Part shown: positions 4,422 through 51,253 of the stretch, one piece after another
How positions within the stretch are numbered: the stretch's first letter is position 1
Layout of the letters: every line of letters starts with the position of its first letter
Source: Coemansia sp. RSA 487
Taxonomy: Eukaryota; Kickxellomycota; Kickxellomycetes; Kickxellales; Kickxellaceae
Direction of reading: 5' to 3'
Length of the DNA stretch: 51,253 bases
NCBI GenBank assembly: GCA_027577595.1
Contig: JANBRJ010000111.1
Span: 1-51,253, forward strand
Position numbers and translations under genes: made by a program
Notes under the pieces: model-generated
Told to the model about the DNA's origin: nothing
What the model saw: the letters and a program-made list of their open reading frames with translations, nothing else
Databases searched by the model: none

Positions 4422-6884
4422 ATGGGAGCCAACACAGCCGCCCTGCGTAGTGCTAAGGTAAGTTTTGTCACAACCAGTATTGGTTGTGAGTCTACACGCT
4501 GCTATACATCAGCATGCCACAAACGCAGAGTATCTGCCTACATGCTGACTCACGTGGAAATATTCTATCATTAATACTGTAGCTGATCGGAACGCTAGCG
4601 AGTGGCCAGCAGAGCATCGCATCACAAGCCAGAAGCGAAGCCGCTAATCATAGTAAGTAGTCGAGCCACCTGTATGCCCCGTGCATCTGGGCAGAACATT
4701 TGATCTCTGCAAAGCCGAAAAAGGCGCTTTTGCAGTGACTATTGGCGCAAGCAATTAGTAGCACTTAAATATATACGTCCCCAGCTATATGAAACATGTA
4801 CTGCTGTCGCGTTTGCCATTGTAGCGGGCACACCCCAAGTGAATGTGCCGAAACCAGACAAGTTTGGTACGGAATGGTATGTTTCGCTGAGCAAGTCATA
4901 TGACAAGTCCTGCAAGCTGACAGACCTGCTGGAATCCCTCCGCATGGTGTCCGAGAGCTGGCGCGAAGCCTGGGTCAAGGCTAGTGACAAAACTACGTTG
5001 GACAGCTCGCCTGTTGTCAAGAAAATCTTGATAACATATCGCAAGCTTTGCAAGGATGCTGGAGTAACGCCGGCTCACTCCGGTGCTGCGGAGACGACAT
5101 ACCAGATGGCGTTTGGGAAGCTCGCGGAAGCAGTCGAGAAACACGCCCCAACGCTCCGTAATGGGCAAGCCGGAGTATGCTGGGTAAATACGCACAAGAG
5201 CAAGATTGAGCGTGGCAGCGGGCCTGGCAGATTCCCCGATGGCAGCTTCTTCATAGCGCAATCGCCCAGGTGCAAGTGGCATGACATGGTTGCGGTGGTG
5301 GAAATCAAGAGCAGCCGCGAGGCAAAACTGAGCCATCTTCTCCGCGGCCAAATTATACAAGGCTTCATTGATATGGCCGAGTCCCGGCCGCGCAGGTTCG
5401 CATTTGGGATCTCGCTTGGCCACCAGGGTGAGATCCACGTATACGTGTGCTTGCCAGACGGAATTCACATTGCATCGCTTGGCAAGCTGCCGCTGGCCAA
5501 GAGCACTCGAGCCTCCCTGGCCAACGAACAGCGCGTGGTCGCGTTCCTGCTGTTTCTGTACCAGCAAATTGCCAAGGATGCCGGGTTCTTGACACGCAGC
5601 GCCGTCAGCCTTCCTGGCGAGTTCGCGCTCGCAGATATCGTCGGCATTTCGCCGTGTGAGGACAATGCTCTTCCTCCTGACACCATGATCCACCTTGGCC
5701 TGGACAGTGACGGTGTGCTCGGGCGGCACCGGTGCCTCAAGGGACCCCGGACGTGGCTCTACCCTGAGTGCCGGATTGGCGGCAAGAGAGCCGTTTTCAA
5801 GTTCCAGTGGCTTCCCGATGGCGCCCTCGAGTCTGCCGTTCACCAGTTTGTGCTGGCCAAGGGTGTGCCGTACGTGCCCGTGCTTCTTTACGCAGCAACT
5901 GTGGCGAGCAACCAGAGCAGCAGCAGCAGCAGCAGCAGCGGAAAAGGCACCGACATACCCCCGCCACTGCCTATAGGCGAGGCACTAGTCGTTGAAGACG
6001 TCGGGAGCAGCGTGCTGTCTGCATTCAACAAGCCGGAAGTCGAGATAATCGACATATTCGCTGCGTATACGCACACCCTCATCTCTGCAGCCAAGATCCA
6101 TGAAAACCGGTTCGTACTTCATCGGGACGTGTCTCTGGGGAACCTAATGGTGACGCGCAAGGGTCATCCATACATCATAGACTGGGGCTGTGGGAATGTG
6201 TGCTACATCGACAAAGACCGCCTTCCGTCAGGAAAGGTGATAGTCGGGACCGCGATCTACATGGGGATCCGCATCTTGCGGAAGTGCCGGACGCGGTCGG
6301 TGGTCGATGACTTGGAGTCGCTATTCCTTGTCTTCTGCCATTGCCTTTGGCGCCAGTACGGAACTGAGAACCCGTACTACGAATACCTGTGGACAAGAGG
6401 AGACCTTGATCTCGTGACACTGACGCGCACTAACTGGCTGAGAAGCAAGGCCGCGCTGTTTGAACATATGGAGATCAAGGGCTGCCTGCCTGAGCCCTAT
6501 CGGATCCTTGCCGAAGGCATGTTTGACCTTCTGTTCCCTTCCTCGTTTCCAATCAGCTCGTTCGAAAGGAACATCGACGATCCACGCGTGGCTGCATTCA
6601 GCTCGTCGGAATGGCTGCACATATTTGAGGAAGCTGTCGACGTCACAGGAGCTACAGCCACGCCCTATCTCAAGCAGCTGCAAGACTACATGGCTGCAAC
6701 CCCGGACCGCCGTATCTCGTTTATCGCCGAGGAGATCGGCTCACCTGTGGACCTCGAGGACTATATAGAACTGGCCAACGAGGCCTCTGAGAACTGCTTC
6801 GACAGTCCAACGCGTGGAAGAGGCTCCAAGAGGGGTGCTACCGGTCAACTCGGTGCGGCGGATGCGAAGATTAGTCGCCATTAG
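4422..6884 (+). CDS. FunK1 fungal-type protein kinase, probably three exons
   Basis: The long 3' exon carries FunK1 hallmarks. The catalytic loop VLHRDVSLGNLM is at about 6115-6150. IIDWG replaces the usual DFG at about 6174-6188. A GTAIYMG activation segment follows, then the family motif DDLESLFLVFCHCLW. FunK1 proteins are protein-kinase-like enzymes expanded in multicellular and early-diverging fungi; substrates are unknown. I propose exons 4422-4457, 4583-4652 and 4759-6884. The first donor is a strong GTAAGT and its acceptor ends ATACTGTAG. The second donor is GTAAGTAG, and an acceptor at CAATTAG keeps frame; the total is 744 codons. The long frame has no ATG near its 5' end, which is why splicing is needed. 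A Ser run near 5918-5940 is encoded by AGC repeats. The first two exons are less certain than the kinase body. A coiled-coil frame lies directly upstream. Confidence 0.7.
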
Positions 6885-7701
6885 ACTTTTTTGACATGTA
6901 ATCCAAATATATTACTAGAATGACAACTTGAGGGGGATTAGGAGGCGGGCTAGAGAGGGGCCTCTGAGAACCAGTTTTGGAGGGCTGGCCACGCTTAGCC
7001 TTGGCGTTTTTTGCCGTGTGTAATACAAGTACTTTTGTATGAATAAAGGTATATTATCAAAAAAACTGAAGAAGGGACCAAGAGAAGAAAAGACCTGTCT
7101 ACCTGTGATGACATGGCATGCTGTTAAATAATAGTAAACATACATCTGGTAATTAGATTTCGTATCACATGGCACCCTTAGTTCTGTTTTTAATAATGTA
7201 TTGAATACCCCTACGCAACAGCCCTAGCGTCAATAGTGTAACATTGGTGCTTATGATTATAATCCTAAAACCTGTTATAACTAAAGATTATTATTTTCTA
7301 GTTCAATAAGACCATTTCTTTTATATGTGAAAACTACTCTATATTTACTTATCATATATGGTATGCCATAATACTAAGTATTTTGCTGAGCTTGAAGCAG
7401 TAATCCGAGCTCTTTGTATGAGCTTGCAGCTGACAAAGAGTACTTGATCTTAATCCTTATCACACAGCATCTATAGTTTGCTAATATGCTTTCCGCCAGT
7501 TCTGAACCACCATTATCATAATGTAGCTACTCCAACTGTTACAAATAAAAGCCTTGACGGAACTAAAGTTCCTTAACTTTATTTTCCATGAACAATCTGG
7601 CTTTTGTACCCATACAAAACACCAGTAATTAAACCTGTGATTGTGACTCACCATGCAACTCGCATGCCGATCATTATCACACCAACTGTGGATTTGTTTA
7701 G
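6885..7701. other. intergenic, AT-rich
   Basis: This is the 3' flank of the kinase gene followed by AT-rich DNA with no supported gene. The only recognisable content is the inverted copy of repeat module X at 7537-7681. Confidence 0.5.
7537..7681 (-). repeat. dispersed repeat module X, inverted copy
   Basis: The reverse complement aligns along its whole length with 1944-2090, including GGCATGCGAGTTGCATGGTGAG and GTACAAAAGCCAGATTGTTC; identity looks about 90% by eye. It lacks the inverted arms and module Y found at the other locus. It ends about 20 bp from the stop codon of the small gene that follows. Confidence 0.85.
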
Positions 7702-15971: not shown

Positions 15972-16500
15972 ATGGAATTTTATGTTAATTTCTAGTTAAT
16001 CTCTTTGCTTTTTGGATTTTGAAATTCTTAATAGGGCTGTGTTTGCAAAGTAGCTCCAAAATCTCTCAGTTTTTGCATCTTTTTTAAAAGAATGGAGCTT
16101 CCTTTTTTATCATCCGCGAGATCTCTTTTGAACATCTTCTTTTGCAGAGCGGAAAATAAATTAAAAAGAAATGCATGCGAAAATATAAAGACAAGGATTG
16201 CTTTTAATTCATTTATAGACTAACGGCTGAAGAAAACTAACGAATGATTTGAATAAGAAAAGGAGGATTTGTCTTTTTTAGACATAGGTTGTCTACTTTA
16301 GGTAAAAGAAAATCAAACCTTTGCAAAAAGCACAAAGATCTTAGTGATAAATGGCTTCAAAGATGCCAACAATTTATCTGAAATTTTAAACTATTTGCTA
16401 TAAATTACCACTCTCCCTCCCAGACCAACTTAACATGACGTCTTTCTCTTTTTTTCCGTATCAACTAATTTATCAGTTATTTCTTCCCAGTTTTCTAATT
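15972..16500. other. intergenic, promoter of first trypsin-fold gene
   Basis: AT-rich spacer. Nothing is recognised except the TATA element near 16399. Confidence 0.5.
16399..16406 (+). promoter_or_regulatory. TATA box of trypsin-fold copy 1
   Basis: TATAAATT lies about 100 bp upstream of the ATG at 16501 but only about 35 bp upstream of the ATG at 16435. It therefore favours 16501 as the translated start. The same element stands before copy 3. Confidence 0.5.
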
Positions 16501-17637
16501 ATGTGTTCTGTTAGCACTCGTATTTCCATGTGCTGCCTTTTGGCTAGTGTCGCCATGTTTTCCGTGTGTAGTGGCCTCTACACACCTGGTAGACAAACGC
16601 TTGGTGATTATGTAAGGTCTCTTTCCAAGCGCGAAGACAATCCAGATGGGTTTGTAACAGCTTATCTCGACACTCTCCACGATGGTCTTCTTATTAAGGA
16701 AAACGAGCAGACGTTCTGTGGTGTCATTCCAATTACTGAAAAGTATGCCTTTGCTGCTGCAAGCTGCTTTGAATTTGTGGATGGTAAGCTGAATGACAAC
16801 ATGGATTACAAGGTCTATCTTTCCGGTACAGGTTATGAAAAGCCAACCCTTCTGGAAGTCACCAGCATCCAGGCACGAGATGACTACAACCCAAATTCAT
16901 TTGCAAACAACCTTGCTGTAGTCACCATTGATAATAGCAAAGGCACTGGGTTTACCACCAACATTGGCGGACCTGCTTCTGAGTGGGCTACTGTGAACTA
17001 TATCCAGCACAGTATGTTGGAAGACCTCAGTGGCTGGAACAAGCCTGACATTTATTCTGGAAAATCCATCGATAATGATGCTTGCAAAAGTGCATCATCG
17101 CTGTTCAAGGCAAACACTGACACCCTTTCATGCAACTCGCAAACACGTAATTCATTTATCAATGAGGGCTGCAAGACACCGCTCAAGTTTGCTGTTGGTT
17201 CAAGTGGAGGCAAAGTTGCTGTTGTTGGATTGTATAGCTACAGCGCTATCTCAGGCACACCTGGAGATGGCTTTTGTGGCTCTGACAACACAATTGTAAG
17301 CTACTATACAAACTTGTATGACTATATCCCATGGGCAACCGAAATCACAGGTGCACAGTTTAGTGTTATACATGCAAATACTGGAGATAATTCAACTCCA
17401 TCAAAGGATATTTCAATGAAAGAGCCTTCAAGCAGTGCAAAGAATGATGGTTCATATATTTATTCCATCTTTGAGCAAGATAAGGAAATCCTTGGGTCTG
17501 ATAACGGTAAAGAAGTTAGCGACCCTGAAAGCAGCTCTTCAAGAAAGCATAAGAGCTCAGCTAACCAGTGCAATGGTGGTGATGGAGATATTCTTACTGT
17601 AACAAAAACGGTTACCGATTGTAACTGCGATAATTAG
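16501..17637 (+). CDS. secreted trypsin-fold (S1) pseudoprotease, copy 1
   Basis: 378 residues from the ATG at 16501, exactly the length of copy 3. A signal peptide (MCCLLASVAMFSVCSG region) leads an S1 chymotrypsin-like fold: FCGVIPI, AAASCF, ANNLAVVTI, VVGLYSYS, then YTNLYDYIPWA. These align with the trypsin blocks CGGxLI, AAHC, NNDIALI, GVVSWG and YTKVxxYVxWI. His57 is Ser (AASC), Asp102 is Asn (ANNLA), and the GDSGGP serine position is Leu (CKTPLKF), so proteolysis is not expected. The later SSGG does not align with GDSGGP. A KR site follows the signal peptide (LSKRED), suggesting Kex2 processing of a propeptide. The tail is Ser-rich, ending with Cys residues. Function unknown; a binding, inhibitor or cell-surface role is possible. 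The upstream ATG at 16435 is open but probably lies at or before the transcript start. Confidence 0.8.
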   Translation: MCSVSTRISMCCLLASVAMFSVCSGLYTPGRQTLGDYVRSLSKREDNPDGFVTAYLDTLHDGLLIKENEQTFCGVIPITEKYAFAAASCFEFVDGKLNDNMDYKVYLSGTGYEKPTLLEVTSIQARDDYNPNSFANNLAVVTIDNSKGTGFTTNIGGPASEWATVNYIQHSMLEDLSGWNKPDIYSGKSIDNDACKSASSLFKANTDTLSCNSQTRNSFINEGCKTPLKFAVGSSGGKVAVVGLYSYSAISGTPGDGFCGSDNTIVSYYTNLYDYIPWATEITGAQFSVIHANTGDNSTPSKDISMKEPSSSAKNDGSYIYSIFEQDKEILGSDNGKEVSDPESSSSRKHKSSANQCNGGDGDILTVTKTVTDCNCDN

Positions 17638-18292
17638 TGTAGTTAATTTAAACATCTGCTAAATGATATGGTGCAATTCGTAATAAACAACAATTTTATA
17701 TAACTGAATCATTTATTAAAATTTTACCATCTAATGTGTAGCAAGTCTCTCTTTTGCAGAATAAAAAGACAAACAGAAAACAGCTCTTGCGAAAGAGCAA
17801 GAAAAATGATGCTCCATATTTTCTTCCATTGCTTACTTAATTAATGAACGCAAGCGGATGGCTGCAATGTAAATGATGAGAAAAAGCTCTCGAAAAAGCA
17901 TAGAAAAAATGTATCGCATTAAAGATATTGTCTTTATAAATATATAAGAATGCTTTTATGTGCAAAAATGCGCACATTCTAATTTGATTTATACAAAGCC
18001 CACTTTTTATATTTTCATCTACAACGACTGTTCATGTTTTTAGTTAAAAAAATCACCTGCCTGCTCCTACAAGTTTTCATAATGCCTTCTCATCTAAAGA
18101 TATTAAAAAGACTACCAATACTTGTAAAGCTTGCTATCCATTCTACTGTATGTTATGATGGACTTTTTATATTTAAATTATAGAAAAGGCAAACAAAAAA
18201 CTGTTCTTTCATCAAATATTCCATCCTTTTCCATTCTTGCTATTATTACTTGCACCATTTTTCTAACTACTACAATTATTTACATCAACATT
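17638..18292. other. intergenic
   Basis: AT-rich spacer between copies 1 and 2; no gene recognised. Confidence 0.5.
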
Positions 18293-19401
18293 ATGAGGTC
18301 TGCATTGCATCATTTGTTTATACTTGGCTCTTATGCCATATTTACCCTTTGTAATGCCTTTCACTCGTTGGGCCATTCTCATTTGCGTGTTGCCTCCAGA
18401 CAACTACCCCAAAGAGACCGCACTACTAACAGTCTATTACTTTCTTTTCTAGATAGCAACCATGATGGTGCATTCGTGTATAAAGGAATCCAAAATTTTT
18501 GTGCCGTCATTTCAATAAGCGAAGCATACATGTATGTTGCAGCTAGTTGCTTTGATGGGATTCACCAAGTGCAGGAGACTACTCAATCTATCTTTCTGGT
18601 GGCGGTAATGGAAAACTAACACCACTGAATGTTAGTAAAATTAAGATACATTCCGACTATGATTCAAATACGTTTGCCAATAACATTGCAATCATTACCG
18701 TCGAGAACAACCAAGTTGCTTAATTTAATAACTCTATTGGCACCCCGCCATCCGAATGGACTACAATAGGCTATATTGAACATAGTTTGACTGAGGATTT
18801 AAGCCAGCGAAATGGCCCAGCTATAAGACTAGGAATCACAGAAGACACCACTGCCTGTAGCAAAGCGTCATCATTATATAATGGAAATAGTAATTTTTTG
18901 ATCTGCGATCCGCTTACGCACACTTCGTTCATTAACAGCAACTGCCAAACGCCATATACGTTTGTAGCGGGAACATATTCAAACATGAATGCACCTATTG
19001 GGCTTTATAGCTACAGCACCATTTCTGGATCTCCATCAGATGGATTTTGTGGCAAGCAGAACACAATTTTAAACTACTATACAGTTCTCTACAACTACAT
19101 TCCCTGGGCATCGGATGAAATAGGTATGGATATCGGTGTTATTCGTCCAAACATTTATAACAGAACACGCCCAACTGATACTATGGCAATGGATAAGCTG
19201 GCTAGAAATGCCAAGAATGATGGCTCGTATATTTTTGGCATGTTTGGACAAGACCAGCAGATCTTGGGTTCTAACAATAGCACCAGCCAAAGCTCACCAA
19301 GTTCTCAGAGTCAAATAATCGCTATACAACCAACACATGGGCATGGCCATAGCCAGTCGCAGTGCAGTGGTGAAAACAACGTTGACTGCTTCTGTGACTA
19401 A
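18293..19401 (+). pseudogene. trypsin-fold pseudoprotease copy 2, disabled
   Basis: It starts at the ATG 18293 with a signal peptide (MRSALHHLFILGSYAIFTL) and follows copies 1 and 3 throughout: FCAVISI, VAASCF, FANNIAIITV, IGLYSYSTISG, YTVLYNYIPWA. The frame shifts once between about 18556 and 18586, where the paralogues read straight through. An in-frame TAA follows at 18721-18723, after which the frame is open again to the end at 19401. With only two lesions and otherwise good conservation, inactivation looks recent. The triad positions are already lost in the intact copies (Ser, Asn, and Tyr at the active serine here). A sequencing error could explain one lesion but is less likely for both. 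Confidence 0.8.
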
Positions 19402-19973
19402 TGCACCTACCAGTTGCCAAATACAGCAGATAGTGCTCAGTTTCTAGTTTTTTTCTTGTTCTTGTTATTTTGATATTCAAATTGCCAGACTTATTAAACA
19501 AGCCGTACAAGTTTAATTAGCTAGAAGTTTGCTTTTTTTTTTTTTGCAATGCTAAAGTGCTTTGAAGCGTTTCCATTCTGCGCTGACCTTGTGAACAAAC
19601 AAATAAAAATGGGGACACAGTAATGCTGTCAGCGACCGCTTTATACAACCAGGTTTTCTTTAACATTTATTGTCTTTTTATTTTATCCTGCAAAATTATA
19701 TGTATAATATATACTTGCTTTGCTAGAAACACTTAAAGAATTCAATCACAGCAAATCACCTGCTTGTTTCTTTATGATAAATGTCTATAAAGTCTTTATC
19801 CATAAAGGCTTCTGCGAGTGTCTATTGTACACGTTAATATAGCCATTTCCCACCCAGCGCAGCGATGAACAAACAAGGTATGCATTTAATATAAATTCAA
19901 AGTATTTGAACGCCAATAACTTTATTCTCGAAATATCAGACAACTTTTCAAGAATTTCTTTGATATTTTGAGC
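19402..19973. other. intergenic
   Basis: AT-rich spacer between copies 2 and 3. It holds a T12 run near 19536 and the TATA element of copy 3; no gene seen. Confidence 0.5.
19890..19897 (+). promoter_or_regulatory. TATA box of trypsin-fold copy 3
   Basis: TATAAATT, 77-84 bp before the ATG at 19974; the same octamer precedes copy 1. Confidence 0.5.
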
Positions 19974-21110
19974 ATGAGATATTTATTCATATATACTGCT
20001 ATTTCCATTGCCATTCCTATGCTGTGCAATTGTATCCATTTGCCAGATTATTCACGTCCAAGTAATGCCCCGAGGCATATCAATCGACGAGATGAGAATG
20101 AGGATGGGTCAGTTATATCGTATCTGAATGGCCTCCGTCCTGGGATACTTGCTAATAAAGATGGCCAAACGGCCTGTGGCGTCATTCCAATTAACAAGAA
20201 CTATGCATTTGTCGCTGCTAGCTGCTTCCAGTACAGCGATGATGGCAAGCCAGATGAAAGCCTCACGTACCAAGTATATCTTTCAGCCATTGATCAGTCA
20301 CCTCCTAAACCTTTTGACGTTGCTGATATCACAGTGCGCACCGACTATGACCCTAATACGTTTGCAAACAACTTGGCAATTATATCTTTTGACTATTCTA
20401 ATGACGGTGAATTGATGAACGATATTGGCTCTCTGGCATCTGAATGGGACCAACTCACCTATATCCAGCAAAACATGACATCCGACCTCGGCTATTGGAA
20501 TGCTCCGTTTATTTACCCTGCTAGTGCAGCAAAGGATTCAGCTTGCAGCAAGGCATCGTCTCTGTATAAGGCTAATCCCAATTCCCTGGTTTGTGATGAG
20601 CAGACCCGCACCTCTGTTTCTGGCGGCAATTGCCAGCTACCGCTCCAGTTCGTTGTGGGAACAAGTGCAAATATACTCGCAGTTGTTGGGCTGTACAGCT
20701 ACAGTGCTATTTCGGGATCATCCGAAGACGGCTTTTGCGATAGCGGAAGCACAATCATAAACTACTACACAAACCTATTCAATTATATTCCTTGGGCCGC
20801 TGAGGTTACAAGTGGAAACGTTGACGTGAGGCATCCAAATATCGAAAACAGGACAGGGCCGACTGAAGTCCTTGCAATGCAGACTCCTCCTGACGATGCC
20901 GAGAATGACGGCTCGTTGATTTTCAGTCTGTTCGGAAAGGACAAGCCGATTCCAGGGAAAGATGGCAGCAAGGCGGTTAAGGGCACCCCGCCAAAGGGCA
21001 CTCCGCCGAAGGGCCCCACGAAATGTACTGGCGACCAAGCAACACTGACCATTGACGTTCCGAGCCACCCAACCAACTGCAAGGTGCAACAAATAGTGCT
21101 TAATTTCTAA
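19974..21110 (+). CDS. secreted trypsin-fold (S1) pseudoprotease, copy 3
   Basis: 378 residues from the first ATG. Signal peptide MRYLFIYTAISIAIPMLC is followed by a short propeptide ending HINRRDEN, a possible dibasic cleavage site. S1 blocks are clear: ACGVIPI, VAASCF, FANNLAIISF, VVGLYSYSAISG, YTNLFNYIPWA. As in copy 1, the triad is gone: His to Ser, Asp to Asn, and the GDSGGP block replaced by CQLPLQF. Cysteines that brace the fold are retained. The tail has a short KGTPPKGTPPKG repeat. It is convergent with vms1, with only 39 bp between the stops. Probably a secreted or wall-associated protein with a non-catalytic role. Confidence 0.82.
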   Translation: MRYLFIYTAISIAIPMLCNCIHLPDYSRPSNAPRHINRRDENEDGSVISYLNGLRPGILANKDGQTACGVIPINKNYAFVAASCFQYSDDGKPDESLTYQVYLSAIDQSPPKPFDVADITVRTDYDPNTFANNLAIISFDYSNDGELMNDIGSLASEWDQLTYIQQNMTSDLGYWNAPFIYPASAAKDSACSKASSLYKANPNSLVCDEQTRTSVSGGNCQLPLQFVVGTSANILAVVGLYSYSAISGSSEDGFCDSGSTIINYYTNLFNYIPWAAEVTSGNVDVRHPNIENRTGPTEVLAMQTPPDDAENDGSLIFSLFGKDKPIPGKDGSKAVKGTPPKGTPPKGPTKCTGDQATLTIDVPSHPTNCKVQQIVLNF

Positions 21111-38897: not shown

Positions 38898-39575
38898 CTA
38901 CTTTTTCAACCCAAGTTTAAAAGTCCCTTTTCTTTCGTGCTCTCTCTGCTTCCTGAGCCACCTGCGGTACGCCACAAGGGAGTCGATTTTCTCTCCGTAG
39001 AAATCAGGCAGCGTGTTGCTTGCCGAGCTAAGCGATGGGTCAGACCTATTGGCCTTGACGTGCTTGAAGAACTCCGCTTCCTTAATTCTCAACGCATTAG
39101 CCATCTTTGGGCTGCCCACACGGTACCAGAACCGACCAGCCGTAGGACCCAGGGCATATCCGATAACCATGCAGAACACTGTAGAAGCACTAAACACAAT
39201 AATAGGATCAAACCCAAAGAACATTTGCTGAGGGTCAATTGGAAGAGTGGCAAATACCCCGGCCCCCACGCTAAGTCCCAGAAGTGCACATGGGAGAGAC
39301 ACTACACGTTCCCACATACGCCGGTGTTTGCGTAGTCTGAAAAACTCGTCCCAATTCAAAAGCTTGTTGGCTTCGATTGTCTCTTCATCAAGCGCTGGCT
39401 GTTTCGAGCCAGAAGAAGGTGGCGATTCAGTTCGAGCCAGTTGGCTGGTATGCAGACCGCAGGCAATGGGCTTGCACCGTACCAACGAGTACGTTGGTGC
39501 CAGAATTGTGGGTCTGTGAAGCCTACGGACGACCAAAGATAGCGCACTGCGCGAGACGCCTAATGTACCAAGCAT
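38898..39575 (-). CDS. pam17: Pam17, subunit of the mitochondrial import motor
   Basis: 225 residues from the ATG at 39575; an upstream in-frame start would add a hydrophobic stretch and is unlikely. An Arg/Ser-rich presequence (MLGTLGVSRSALSLVVRRLHR) of about 50 residues is followed by the conserved LNWDEFFRLRKHRR. Two membrane helices come next (ALLGLSVGAGVFATLPI and VFSASTVFCMVIGYALGP), then GRFWYR and a matrix tail with DFYGEKIDSLVAYRRWLRKQR. Pam17 organises the Pam16-Pam18 J-complex at TIM23 and is fungal-specific. Confidence 0.93.
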   Translation of the reverse strand: MLGTLGVSRSALSLVVRRLHRPTILAPTYSLVRCKPIACGLHTSQLARTESPPSSGSKQPALDEETIEANKLLNWDEFFRLRKHRRMWERVVSLPCALLGLSVGAGVFATLPIDPQQMFFGFDPIIVFSASTVFCMVIGYALGPTAGRFWYRVGSPKMANALRIKEAEFFKHVKANRSDPSLSSASNTLPDFYGEKIDSLVAYRRWLRKQREHERKGTFKLGLKK

Positions 39576-40859: not shown

Positions 40860-42191
40860 TTTGAACTTTTTTTTTCAGAAGCAGTGATTTGGAAACAAGA
40901 ATAAAAAAGAATGTTAAAGCTTGTCGAAAAAAAAGACCAAAGAGACGAAAAGAAGCAGATACTCTGGTTTTTTACTTTCCATATGAGCTTTATTTTTTGT
41001 TTGTGCAATGAACACAGTTTAGTCGAAAAGATGGTTCGCAGAGTCGAATCGAGCCATAGCGTGACATAATCATTGATTCTGCTTAATTACACAAGCATCT
41101 AGATCATCAGCATCTTCGTGTCCGAAAGAACTGAATAGAATAGCAATTGAACGGCTCCAGAGCAGTGCCAGAAGAAAAGCAAGTCTCATGACAACCAAAG
41201 CAGCAGGGTATTTTATTTGCTCTTCGATTGGCCAGCTCGAATAGTGTGATTATATTGTAGAATTAGTAGTGTCGTTCACACGCGACTTGCGCACAATAGA
41301 AATGTGCCCACGTCAATTATACTCCCCTCTTTTACGACATTTTATATACATGGTTGTGCCACCATGCCAAACAGCAGTTGGCTAAGGCACATAATATCCA
41401 AAAAAAAGTGCGATTATAAGCTGCCATCGTTTCCTTTTCATTATATAATTGCTGGTTGATGTGGAAATTAATACAATTGTGCGTATGCATGACAATCCAG
41501 GTTTGTAGCTATTGTTGCATCCCCTTTAACATATACACGTAGCCTATCGACTACTTTTTTTTGGTTCCGCTTGTGGCAAGAGATAAAATAAACAAAAACC
41601 GGCATACATACTAGAACGTCTTTTTGCAATAGAATGACACCACCTCTCCTCCCACACAACACATTGAATGGAGCAGACACAAGCTAATTGGAAAAACAAA
41701 ATATTAAATGCGTGCATTGAAAAAACTATAATGATACATCGCATGTAATTGAGTACAATCACAATAACAGCACAACCGCTTGCAAGACTCCCCTTCCTCC
41801 GTCGTTAGGATATTTGCTAGCATTAAAACAGCAATTACAAAATCTCTAGGACACCCTATCACCCCTCTCATCCTGTGTATTGTTTTATAAAGTACAACTT
41901 AATTGTAGTCACAATTGTAGATGTAATGGTCGTTTATATTAATTCTATTCATTTAACGGATAGACAGCGAGTTTCCTTTTTTGAACGAAACTATTGCCAA
42001 AATGAGAGTAGACTGTTTATTTTTTTTGGACAATTTGTAAATGGATATAAAAAGTCGGTAGCAAGGACCATCGATTGTACTCGTTTTCTCATTAATCCTT
42101 CATCTCACAAAGCAAACACATAGCGACTTACATCTTATCCTCCTCCTTCCGATATCTGATAAATATTTTTAGTCTATCTTCCTCTTAAAAA
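40860..42191. other. long promoter region of the repeat-peptide gene
   Basis: 1.3 kb of AT-rich DNA between the divergent pom33 and repeat-peptide starts. Short frames at 41468-41762 (minus) and 41875-42123 (plus) show no domain. The TATA element at 42046 is the only site I can name. A spacer this long is unusual here and may hold upstream control elements. Confidence 0.5.
42046..42054 (+). promoter_or_regulatory. TATA box of the repeat-peptide gene
   Basis: TATAAAAAG, about 140 bp upstream of the ATG at 42192; a strong consensus, typical of regulated or highly expressed genes. Confidence 0.55.
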
Positions 42192-42737
42192 ATGAAGTCT
42201 TTCCTTGCCGCTCTTGCCTTTGTGGCCATTTCCTCGGCCGCGCCTGTTGCCCAGCCACAAGTCGATAGCGTTGGTGAATGGTATGTCAAGCGCAGCCCCC
42301 AAGTAGACAGCGTCGGCGAGTGGTACGTCAAACGCAATCCTCAAGTAGACAGCGTTGGCGAATGGTACGTCAAGCGCAATCCTCAAGTCGATAGTGTTGG
42401 CGAATGGTATGTCAAGCGCGAACCACAAGTAGATAGCGTTGGCGAGTGGTATGTCAAGCGTAACCCACAGGTTGACAGTGTCGGCAAATGGTACGTCAAG
42501 CGCGAACCACAAGTAGACAGCGTCGGCAAATGGTACGTCAAGCGCGAACCACAAGTAGATAGCGTCGGCGAGTGGTATGTCAAGCGCAATCCCCAAGTAG
42601 ACAGCGTCGGTGAATGGTACGTCAAGCGCAATCCCCAGGTAGACAGTGTCGGCGAATGGTACGTCAAGCGCAACCCCGAGCCAAAGGCTGCACCCAGCCC
42701 AGAGCCAGTGGCCAAGAAAGCTGCTGCAAGCAAGTAA
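42192..42737 (+). CDS. secreted Kex2-processed repeat-peptide precursor (alpha-factor-like pheromone candidate)
   Basis: 181 residues. The signal peptide MKSFLAALAFVAISSA is followed by APVAQP, then ten 14-residue repeats with consensus PQVDSVGEWYVKRN. Position 8 is Glu in eight copies and Lys in two (repeats 6 and 7); the last residue is Asn, Glu or Ser. The tail is PEPKAAPSPEPVAKKAAASK. Each repeat ends in Lys-Arg, the Kex2 site. The residues after each cut are NP, EP or SP, and leader (AP-VA-QP) and tail (NP-EP-KA-AP-SP-EP-VA) are also X-Pro/X-Ala pairs, the substrates of Ste13/DPP-IV-type dipeptidyl aminopeptidases. With Kex1 trimming of KR, the predicted product is QVDSVGEWYV (8 copies) and QVDSVGKWYV (2 copies). 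This is the layout of ascomycete alpha-pheromones and of fungal Kex2-processed repeat proteins. The role is inferred. No receptor or peptide-modifying enzyme gene lies in the window. Confidence 0.85.
   Translation: MKSFLAALAFVAISSAAPVAQPQVDSVGEWYVKRSPQVDSVGEWYVKRNPQVDSVGEWYVKRNPQVDSVGEWYVKREPQVDSVGEWYVKRNPQVDSVGKWYVKREPQVDSVGKWYVKREPQVDSVGEWYVKRNPQVDSVGEWYVKRNPQVDSVGEWYVKRNPEPKAAPSPEPVAKKAAASK
42255..42674 (+). repeat. ten tandem 42-bp units encoding the peptide
   Basis: Exactly ten in-frame 42-bp units. They differ mostly at third codon positions (GTC/GTA/GTT, GAT/GAC, AGC/AGT, GGC/GGT, TAT/TAC). The only amino-acid changes are at the spacer residue and at one Glu/Lys position, so the peptide has been conserved while the DNA drifted. 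Confidence 0.95.
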
Positions 42738-48205: not shown

Positions 48206-48500
48206 GAATAAAGTCTCTGCTAACTGGCTTGTCAAGCCAACCTTGTAGCGCTTACACTTTTGGCTTAATTATTTATCTACATGTTATAGTTTAATTTAAC
48301 TGAGGGCTGCAAGCTTTAATGCTTCTCTTTTGTGTATATACGATTTTCGAATATAAAGACAAATTTACCCATAAAAACTGTGACGGGTTTACCATGAACC
48401 TAGGATAAAATAACAGAGTAATTTATAGATTTCCTATTTTCTTCAAACTCGATAAAAGAAAAAATACATGTCTTCTTCCAGAAGTCAATGACCCACGAGC

Positions 48501-48629
48501 AATGCTGCCCTTATACGTAACAGAAAGCTGTTACATGTAGTGCACTATTGCATTGTTAACGTTTAGTGGCCGCGCAAAGCCATGACAATGGGGCAGCCTT
48601 GCATACGACAACCACACTAGCGTGACAAA
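48501..48629 (+). repeat. dispersed repeat module Y, second copy
   Basis: Direct-orientation relative of 2093-2219. Shared blocks are AATGCTGCCC, GTGCACTATTGCA, CAGCCTTGCATA and CACTAGCGTGACAAA; identity looks about 75% by eye. Neither module X nor the inverted arms are present here. Confidence 0.7.
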
Positions 48630-49328: not shown

Positions 49329-51253
49329 ATGTTTCATTTTATTGAAAAGTATAGTCAGCTGTTTAGCTGCAACATGCCCTTGTTGGATTTTACAAGCAGC
49401 TTCGTGATTTTACTTATTGCGCTTTTTATTGCAATTAAAGGCAAGAAATCTCCTTTTATTCGTCTGAATAACACTCGTGCCCTGCTTTGTTATTCAGCTC
49501 TCTCTGTTCTTGCTGCTCAACAGCATACTGGTTGGGTCGCGATCCACTCTCTGCTGTCTATTGCAGCACTGCCAATTCTTACCCAATACTCTGCTGGAGT
49601 CTACCCATTCCAGCTGACCAACATATTTGGCATATACAATGCAATGAACGGAAACGGCTTTGGAGTTGGCCACAGAATTGTCTCCACTGTAATCCATGCA
49701 TACCTTTTACTTGCTAGCTATGACAAGAAGGACCTGTCTTTTCTCGAAGATATAAAAAGTATACTGCTTTACACAGAAGAGCTCCGTCTGGCAAACATCC
49801 AAAAGGTTCGTGATATTGTTCTTGACGATATGAAGAAACTTCCAGAAAGAATGCGCTTGTCTAATGTTGCAGACAAATTCGCATATGATGTGAATGAGCC
49901 TCTATTTCTTCTACGTGCAATTGCCAGGATGATGTGGCGCCCAATGCTTCCATTATACATACTTTCTGCAATCGCAAACATGCTATCCGTTGCTAGCTCA
50001 GTTGCAAAAAGCCGAATCATACATTTTATTGATTTACCAGCAGAACATAGCTGGTATTCAGGCTACATATATGTGATTCTCGAATTTGTTTTACTAGCTG
50101 GCTCAAGGCAGCTATATAGGGTTGAATTATTTATGGATGAAGAAGTCAATCGTGTGATCAGCGCATTGAGGCTTCACTTATTTCGCTTGCCACTCCTAAA
50201 CAAGGGCCTCCAAAAGGACAGCCTTATAAACAGAGCTCAGAATAATATAGAAGATATGATAGATGACTTAAAAGATACACAGTCTATTATTTCTTCATTT
50301 GCTGGTGCATTTTCAGCATTTGTGCCTCTATATATCCACGTTGGATGGCCGGCATTGATTCCCTTGGGTGTCGCTTTGGTACACTTCCTTTTGAAAATTA
50401 TTTTTCAAAAAATTGTTGGTCCGGAGCCTTTATGGACTTCTTACTGGTATGAATATGATGACAGGGTTGATGAGATTTACCACAACATAAAATCGATTAA
50501 GATGTTTGGCTGGGAAAAGATGTATGTCGACCCAAAGATCCAAAAATACTGGGAAAGATTTGATCATAAGGAAAAGATCCCGTGGTATGCGCCAATTGCC
50601 AGAGTTTTTTATTTTGTTTACAGAATATTTTATGTAACTACCCAGTCTTTATCATCATTTCTGGTGTTCTACCTATACCTTCACAGTGCAAGATCATCAA
50701 ATCCAATGTCAGCAGCAGATATGTTTTGGATGGATGGTCTTATCAATAATATGCAATCAGATGTTGAGAGTTTTGTAAGTAAGCTCATATCGCTAAGTAA
50801 CTTTATAGAAAATAATCACAGAGTTGAAAAGGCACTTAGGGGCAACTATATTAATACCTTGCCTGTGATACGAAATCTAATTACCGGATGTATGTTTACC
50901 ACTATTTAACAGCATGCCATGTCATCACAGATAGATGGACTTTTCTCCTCTGGTTTCGGTCTTCAGTTTTTATACTATACTTTTATTCATATTAAATTTC
51001 CCCATTATCCGATAGATACATCAAGGGCGCAAAATGATGAGCATGAAACCTCTATTAATTACTCAAAGTCGTCAATGCAAACTGACAATGGTGAATTTTC
51101 TTGGTATAGAAACTATCCAATTTTAACTGGTGTTTCATTGTCAGTAGAACAGGGAGAGCTTGCTGCGGTAGTTGGTAAGACAGGATCAGGAAAGTCATCA
51201 CTGTTGTTGTCTATCTGTGGCGAGATTGAAATGACTGGTGGAACAGGTGCTGT
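49329..51253 (+). CDS. ABCC-type ABC transporter, 3' cut by window edge, with an in-frame TAA
   Basis: From the ATG at 49329 the protein begins with a short membrane region of the TMD0/L0 kind (FVILLIALFIAI, then several helices). It continues through the first ABC transmembrane domain (ARMMWRPMLPLYILSAIANM, WYSGYIYVILEF). TMD1 has the MRP-like coupling helices (DDRVDEIYHNIKSIKMFGWE). The first nucleotide-binding domain follows in the same frame, with FSWYRNYPILTGVSLSVEQG and Walker A VVGKTGSGKSSLLLSI near 51165-51212. A TAA at 50907-50909 separates the two, although the frame is open on both sides. Either the gene is a pseudogene or a short intron removes the stop. One frame-keeping candidate uses a weak GTGATA donor at 50865 with a CAG acceptor at 50912, 50930 or 50966. 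ABCC pumps export conjugated and bulky anions. Confidence 0.75.

Follow-up and report, generated by a model that had tools for sequence, protein, structure and literature searches.

Does a fungus of the Coemansia type make a peptide that is released from its precursor in the manner of the ascomycete alpha-factor, and what would such a peptide do? The question is raised by a repeat gene at 42192–42737 in a stretch of 51,253 nucleotides from Coemansia sp. RSA 487, which was analysed at its full length and is called the window here. Coemansia is placed in Kickxellomycotina, and partner attraction in early-diverging fungi besides Mucoromycotina and Blastocladiomycota is described as largely unknown (PMC6339444; for Zoopagomycota also PMC10386755). 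Precursors of a related plan, the KEPs, are already known across fungi and consist of a signal peptide plus three or more near-identical repeats with Kex2 sites between them (Le Marquer 2019, PMC6339444). They occur in Zoopagomycota too (PMC6339444), with 185 counted in 16 strains (Umemura 2020, PMC7329392), and Rhizophagus irregularis is, in the excerpt of PMC6339444, the unique early-diverging fungus of the 2019 set with Ste13 signatures of the kind considered here. Statements credited to PMC6339444, PMC7329392, PMC9769878, PMC10386755 and PMC3834313 refer throughout to excerpts of these papers. As judged from its sequence, the window gene is a genuine, conserved KEP with a Ste13 signature in a Coemansia-type fungus, and would be a new member of the KEPs in a lineage other than R. 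irregularis.

Anatomy of the repeat precursor

The gene is a single open frame of 181 aa on the plus strand with an ATG start and a TAA stop, as read from the window translation. Its parts are given below; the array limits reported by TRF overlap the leader and the tail by at most one codon.

42192..42737, + strand: Kex2-processed repeat protein gene, 181 aa, single exon (open frame; copy B on contig C130; relative P0031)
42192..42239, + strand: putative signal peptide, residues 1–16 (hydropathy; cleavage after A16 inferred)
42240..42257, + strand: leader of three X-Pro/X-Ala pairs, AP-VA-QP, that keep the phase of the first core (translation; same leader in P0031)
42255..42673, + strand: ten 42-bp repeats, each with core QVDSVG(E/K)WYV, Kex2 site KR and spacer NP/EP/SP (TRF; codon table)
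42672..42713, + strand: tail NP-EP-KA-AP-SP-EP-VA, seven dipeptides (dipeptide table)
42714..42734, + strand: C-terminal KKAAASK, outside the dipeptide plan (translation)
42046..42051, + strand: TATA-like string, 146 bases upstream of the ATG (string match only)

Residues 3–15 of the precursor were hydrophobic, with a mean Kyte–Doolittle value of 2.05, against −0.58 for the highest-scoring 13-residue segment whose first residue lies within 21–100. Cleavage presumably follows A16, which we take from the −3,−1 rule. TRF returned a single array in the gene, at 42255–42673, made up of 10.0 copies of period 42 with 85% matches and free of indels, and the codon table resolved ten PQVDSVG(E/K)WYVKR units, eight with E and two with K. 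Translation, TRF and hydropathy bear out the ten repeats, and a start resembling the signal peptide, that an earlier note on this DNA had described. Read from the N-terminus, the precursor consists of the signal-peptide-like start, AP-VA-QP, ten cores each followed by KR, the spacers SP/NP/EP, the tail and KKAAASK. The same note had held that X-Pro/X-Ala pairs fill all of the remaining sequence, and this is so for the leader, the spacers and the tail, and not for the last seven residues, KKAAASK.

The phase of these pairs was examined in the window precursor, in a second gene of the same genome (copy B) and in a relative from Coemansia sp. RSA 1200 (P0031), both described below. The second residue of the leader and spacer dipeptides was P or A in every case (12/12, 14/14 and 6/6, respectively; 32/32 in total), and the first residue was P or A in 1/12, 6/14 and 1/6; the spacers are copies of one another, so that these counts are not independent trials. 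In nine other window proteins, P and A together made up 14.6% of residues. When the tails of the window precursor and P0031 were compared by eye, all seven second residues of the dipeptides were the same and three of the seven first residues were. The P/A phase is thus kept in the tails while four first residues differ, which is the pattern expected if removal in pairs selects. Translation and dipeptide phase agree with the alpha-factor-style anatomy that had been claimed, comprising a putative signal peptide, Kex2 sites and Ste13-type dipeptides.

In a Pfam scan at E 0.01 the precursor matched no mating-factor family, a class in which short families may be missed, and no structural family at its cut-off. 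The scan returned just two families, DUF2944 and YOMG_N, neither of them related to mating factors. They were rejected as domains of the repeat protein; both fell below their curated cut-offs and probably reflect a repeat effect. The window gene had no match in a plasmid collection, which is uninformative for a fungus. By string match, a further TATA-like string lies at −306 of the window gene and one at −111 of copy B, and the strings TGAAAC and GTTTCA were absent upstream of both genes.

A second copy, a relative and selection on the repeats

Searches of the own genome covered an assembly of 17.79 Mb in 184 contigs and found one further gene of this type, copy B, at C130:7244–7618 (7244–7627 in its wider extent). 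It has a putative signal peptide, eight leader dipeptides (AP five times, then IP, AP and NP) and six full cores with KR. Its seventh core stops at a TAG after GKW, with a second in-frame TAG just after; the last peptide of copy B, ending within this core, would be without YVKR. A DNA pattern for WYVKR had 16 forward matches in the genome, ten in the window gene and six in copy B, and one reverse match on contig C89. The latter is at chance level, since a backward-read control pattern matched five places, and it was rejected as a repeat gene: it lies antisense to an 870-aa frame that looks ABC transporter-like by eye, and has no repeats. A search of the genome with copy B at E 10 found no third gene.

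The window gene and copy B are not alleles of one locus, because their neighbouring genes differ; copy B has an RSN1_7TM-type channel gene on one side and an arrestin-domain gene on the other. When the window was compared with C130:1–20000 by blastn, the match at the two genes was confined to the repeat array, with short dispersed stretches elsewhere. The local alignment of the upstream regions (600 and 373 bases) scored 22, where shuffles averaged 21.2, and that of the downstream regions scored 25, with no more than a T-rich run aligned. A dispersed element of ~100 bp was seen at 7033–7130 and 50898–50996 of the window and at C130:727–826, with 84% identity between contigs. Other short shared stretches, of 77–84% identity, were seen at 48379–48522 and 7176–7245 of the window and at C130:1–145 and 191–260.

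A relative of the repeat protein was found in another species. With the alignment of both copies as query at E 10, one match was obtained among the 8000 scored candidates sharing most words, namely P0031, annotated in Coemansia sp. RSA 1200 as hypothetical protein IWW48_005083 (97 aa, E 2.3e-40). The window protein alone at E 1e-3 matched 0 of 6957 candidates, in a search whose length limit (0.55 of 181 aa) P0031 just missed. P0031 has the leader APVAQP of the window precursor, four full repeats and the tail NP-EP-VA-AP-NP-AP-EA-KGADKKK, and by eye it keeps 39 of the 40 core residues. One of its cores (residues 37–46) reads QAD rather than QVD. In that core dipeptidyl removal might go on, giving a shorter peptide. 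Full repeats with a Kex2 site, of which the KEP definition asks for at least three, thus number ten in the window precursor, six in copy B and four in P0031.

The neighbourhood of the gene was traced through Pam17, whose gene lies at 38898–39575 on the minus strand of the window, 2.6 kb from the repeat gene. Pam17 of the window organism and that of Coemansia sp. RSA 1200 (P0023) share 65% identity over 154 aligned residues, as against the 39 of 40 core residues that the two repeat proteins have in common. For both P0031 and P0023 the longest contig listed is 45,269 bases, and from these equal values the two genes of Coemansia sp. RSA 1200 probably share one contig, as they do in the window. 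When the window Pam17 protein was searched at E 1e-3, 29 proteins including itself were found, and 22 of the 29 rows named Coemansia; the best match, from Coemansia sp. RSA 2399, had 63% identity, and Kickxella, Linderina, Dimargaris and Dispira came next. These matches place the host in Coemansia or a nearby genus of Kickxellales. That the repeat protein has few database relatives despite these 22 Coemansia rows may be due to absence, missing annotation or the limits on length and candidate number in the searches.

We then analysed the codons of the 16 full repeats of the two loci. Across the 13 codons that encode P through R, the variable columns comprised twelve third positions, one first position (in the E/K codon) and no second position, and the 12 codons other than the E/K codon showed third-position variation or none. 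With the E/K codon left out, dN was 0 and dS was 1.16 (Nei–Gojobori, 120 pairs that are not independent); dN/dS was 0.010 over 13 codons with the E/K codon, and 0.036 over 14 once the X codon in the spacer is counted too. At least 14 changes are needed in the 12 codons and all are synonymous, compared with 23 of 108 random single changes, giving a probability of about 4e-10 if changes are crudely treated as independent, or 6e-9 when transitions are weighted. The peptide sequence is under purifying selection; the synonymous-only divergence between repeats argues for this over mere fresh copying. Recent duplication as the sole cause of the identical cores was rejected in view of the high synonymous divergence, and a chance or simple-repeat origin in view of synonymous changes with a fixed peptide, the second copy and the relative in another species. 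Gene conversion may play some part in core identity; in copy B, repeats 3 and 5 agree codon for codon. Collectively, copy B in different flanks, P0031, the synonymous-only divergence and the protease genes described below argue that the window gene is real.

Processing proteases and the predicted peptide

The earlier note had also suggested a look for Kex2, Kex1 and Ste13 orthologues in the same genome, and proteins of all three kinds are present. The sole P_proprotein match in the genome is in an 851-aa Kex2-type protein on contig C41 with S8 and P domains, which is hydrophobic at its start and again in a segment at 700–718, and whose best PDB match is kexin 2id4 (7.6e-158). S10 carboxypeptidases gave seven matches in six frames, and a hydrophobic segment close to the C-terminus (424–455) was seen in just one of these, the C57 frame; the best PDB match of this Kex1-type protein is 1ac5, KEX1 (6.7e-71). 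The first exon of the C57 gene is probably missing from the frame, since the ATG-started frame begins within the S10 domain. A DPP4-type protein on C15 has full DPPIV_N and S9 domains and an N-terminal hydrophobic segment (73–103), which we take to be the layout of Ste13, and a second DPPIV-type protein, on C13, has no such segment. With types assigned via domains and best PDB match, the genome is predicted to encode Kex2-, Kex1- and Ste13/DPAP-type membrane proteases.

From the anatomy of the precursor we infer the following route. The precursor would enter the ER via its signal peptide, and a Golgi Kex2-type protease would cut after every Lys-Arg. The Kex1-type carboxypeptidase would then strip Lys-Arg, and the Ste13-type dipeptidyl aminopeptidase would strip the X-Pro/X-Ala pairs, so that each precursor would yield ten 10-mers, eight of QVDSVGEWYV and two of QVDSVGKWYV. 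Their N-terminal Gln would perhaps be cyclised to pyroglutamate. Calculated [M+H]+ values are 1181.547 for QVDSVGEWYV and 1180.600 for QVDSVGKWYV, and 1164.521 and 1163.573 for the respective pyroglutamate forms. Once outside the cell, the peptide would most likely serve as a conserved linear signal, addressed to the producing fungus or its neighbours. If NPQVDSVGEWYVKR alone, or the intact precursor, were the product, this would speak against the Ste13 and Kex1 steps. In Coprinopsis cinerea, linear KEP-derived peptides including pyro-Gln forms were seen by mass spectrometry (PMC9769878).

We are highly confident that the window gene encodes a Kex2/Ste13-type peptide precursor. The whole statement, that the precursor is of this type and that its peptide is released and acts as a signal, is favoured with moderate confidence, and on its sequence QVDSVG(E/K)WYV is probably a secreted signal. 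The few database relatives, the TAG in the seventh core of copy B and the QAD core of P0031 count against this whole statement. In addition, six kep knockouts in C. cinerea were without apparent phenotype according to the excerpt of PMC9769878, which leaves a signalling role less than assured. Together with protease genes of the right kinds, an exact 10-mer that can be synthesised, is conserved in two Coemansia-type species and is kept by purifying selection offers a start for a search for the receptor and for effects on mating or growth. If the peptide is not used in mating, it would still be a candidate for a conserved, secreted peptide in a lineage where few signals are known.

Known systems and candidate roles

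With the KEPs of PMC6339444 and PMC7329392 the window precursor shares a putative signal peptide, Kex2-separated repeats and a core in the class of 9–24 aa. Like ascomycete alpha-type precursors (yeast MF-alpha), it has X-Pro/X-Ala after the Kex2 site and multiple cores; unlike them, it has only the signal peptide and dipeptides before the first core, no mating-factor Pfam match, and no Ste2 match in its genome (control genomes being silent too). The likeness to alpha-factor precursors is one of anatomy, with no homology match to the alpha-pheromone family. By description, the KEPs of R. irregularis resemble the window precursor in their early-diverging host, Ste13 signature and core Tyr (PMC6339444); this member of Glomeromycotina has many KEPs, whereas two related genes with this core were found in the Coemansia-type genome. 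The basidiomycete KEPs have the same precursor plan without alpha-type mating, and pyro-Gln peptides, in a different phylum (PMC6339444, PMC9769878); the cores quoted in the excerpts, such as pyro-QVPVDEPA (PMC9769878), differ from QVDSVG(E/K)WYV.

Among other roles, a true sex pheromone sensed by the mating partner's GPCR, like ascomycete alpha-factor, is unlikely. It would fit the Ste13 signature, as in alpha-pheromones, and the genome has a Ste12-family gene (C58, 2.0e-47) and a Git3-type 7TM gene (C37, 3.7e-5; 26.8 bits, cut-off 24.2); mating genetics of Zoopagomycota are described as not yet well understood (PMC10386755). However, a receptor of the Ste2/Ste3 type, for which the earlier note had suggested a look in this genome, did not turn up: the STE2 and STE3 models had no match in the own genome, nor in the control genomes, a negative limited by introns and divergence. 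It carries some weight, since Git3 and Ste12 were matched in the own genome although the control genomes were silent for these too. No mating-factor Pfam family was matched either, and Basidiomycota have KEPs with a Ste13 signature, the same precursor plan, without mating use, their mating pheromones being of a different type (PMC6339444). According to PMC6339444 (section 18), Mucoromycotina rely on apocarotenoids rather than peptides, and for arbuscular mycorrhizal fungi a STE3 orthologue is reported and a peptide pheromone gene is not, in the excerpt of PMC3834313.

Our search of full texts found no paper joining Coemansia or Kickxellomycotina with Kex2, and no paper joining Kickxellomycotina with a pheromone receptor; Coemansia and pheromones are mentioned together in two papers, PMC10386755 among them. 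Six terms that denote early-diverging groups were all absent from the text of the 2026 fungal GPCR review PMC13308352. The core strings were absent from the literature searched, and the protein or its relatives may stand in the supplementary tables on KEPs. By this search the peptide would be the first Kickxellales peptide sex pheromone or self-signal, made by alpha-factor-style biosynthesis and sensed by a GPCR outside the Ste2 family, a proposal that we regard as doubtful. If true, Kex2/Ste13 peptide signalling would predate Dikarya or would have arisen more than once.

That the 10-mers instead coat hyphae or spores as a repellent-type surface peptide is quite improbable. The many copies per precursor and the aromatic and aliphatic core are consistent with such a role, and Rep1 of Ustilago maydis is likewise Kex2-processed, with peptides that attach to hyphae (PMC6339444). 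Rep1 is, however, without a Ste13 signature in the same source, whereas the window precursor has one in its leader and in every spacer, and no structural Pfam family was matched at cut-off. A cyclised RiPP precursor of the dikaritin type, its Tyr crosslinked by UstYa-like enzymes, is very unlikely: the core contains Tyr and Trp and dikaritin precursors have KEP architecture (PMC9769878), but the UstYa model PF11807 (DUF3328) had no match genome-wide, with control genomes also silent, and the cyclic-peptide precursors named in the excerpt of PMC6339444 are without Ste13 signatures. An antimicrobial or interaction peptide directed at other organisms, for which the proposed biotic-environment role of Coprinopsis KEPs (PMC9769878) is a precedent and the sequence offers no direct evidence, is the least probable of these roles. 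A conserved linear signal, matured by the Kex2/Ste13 route, is the reading that we prefer.

Two further features of the window were observed. Three plus-strand frames at 16435–17637, 18155–18619 and 19974–21110, the middle one shorter, appear related by eye and have the look of secreted trypsin-type proteins; within 16435–21110 they had no Pfam match at 1e-5. The frame at 4944–6884, also on the plus strand, matches a fungal protein kinase (Pkinase_fungal, PF17667, 7.3e-11).
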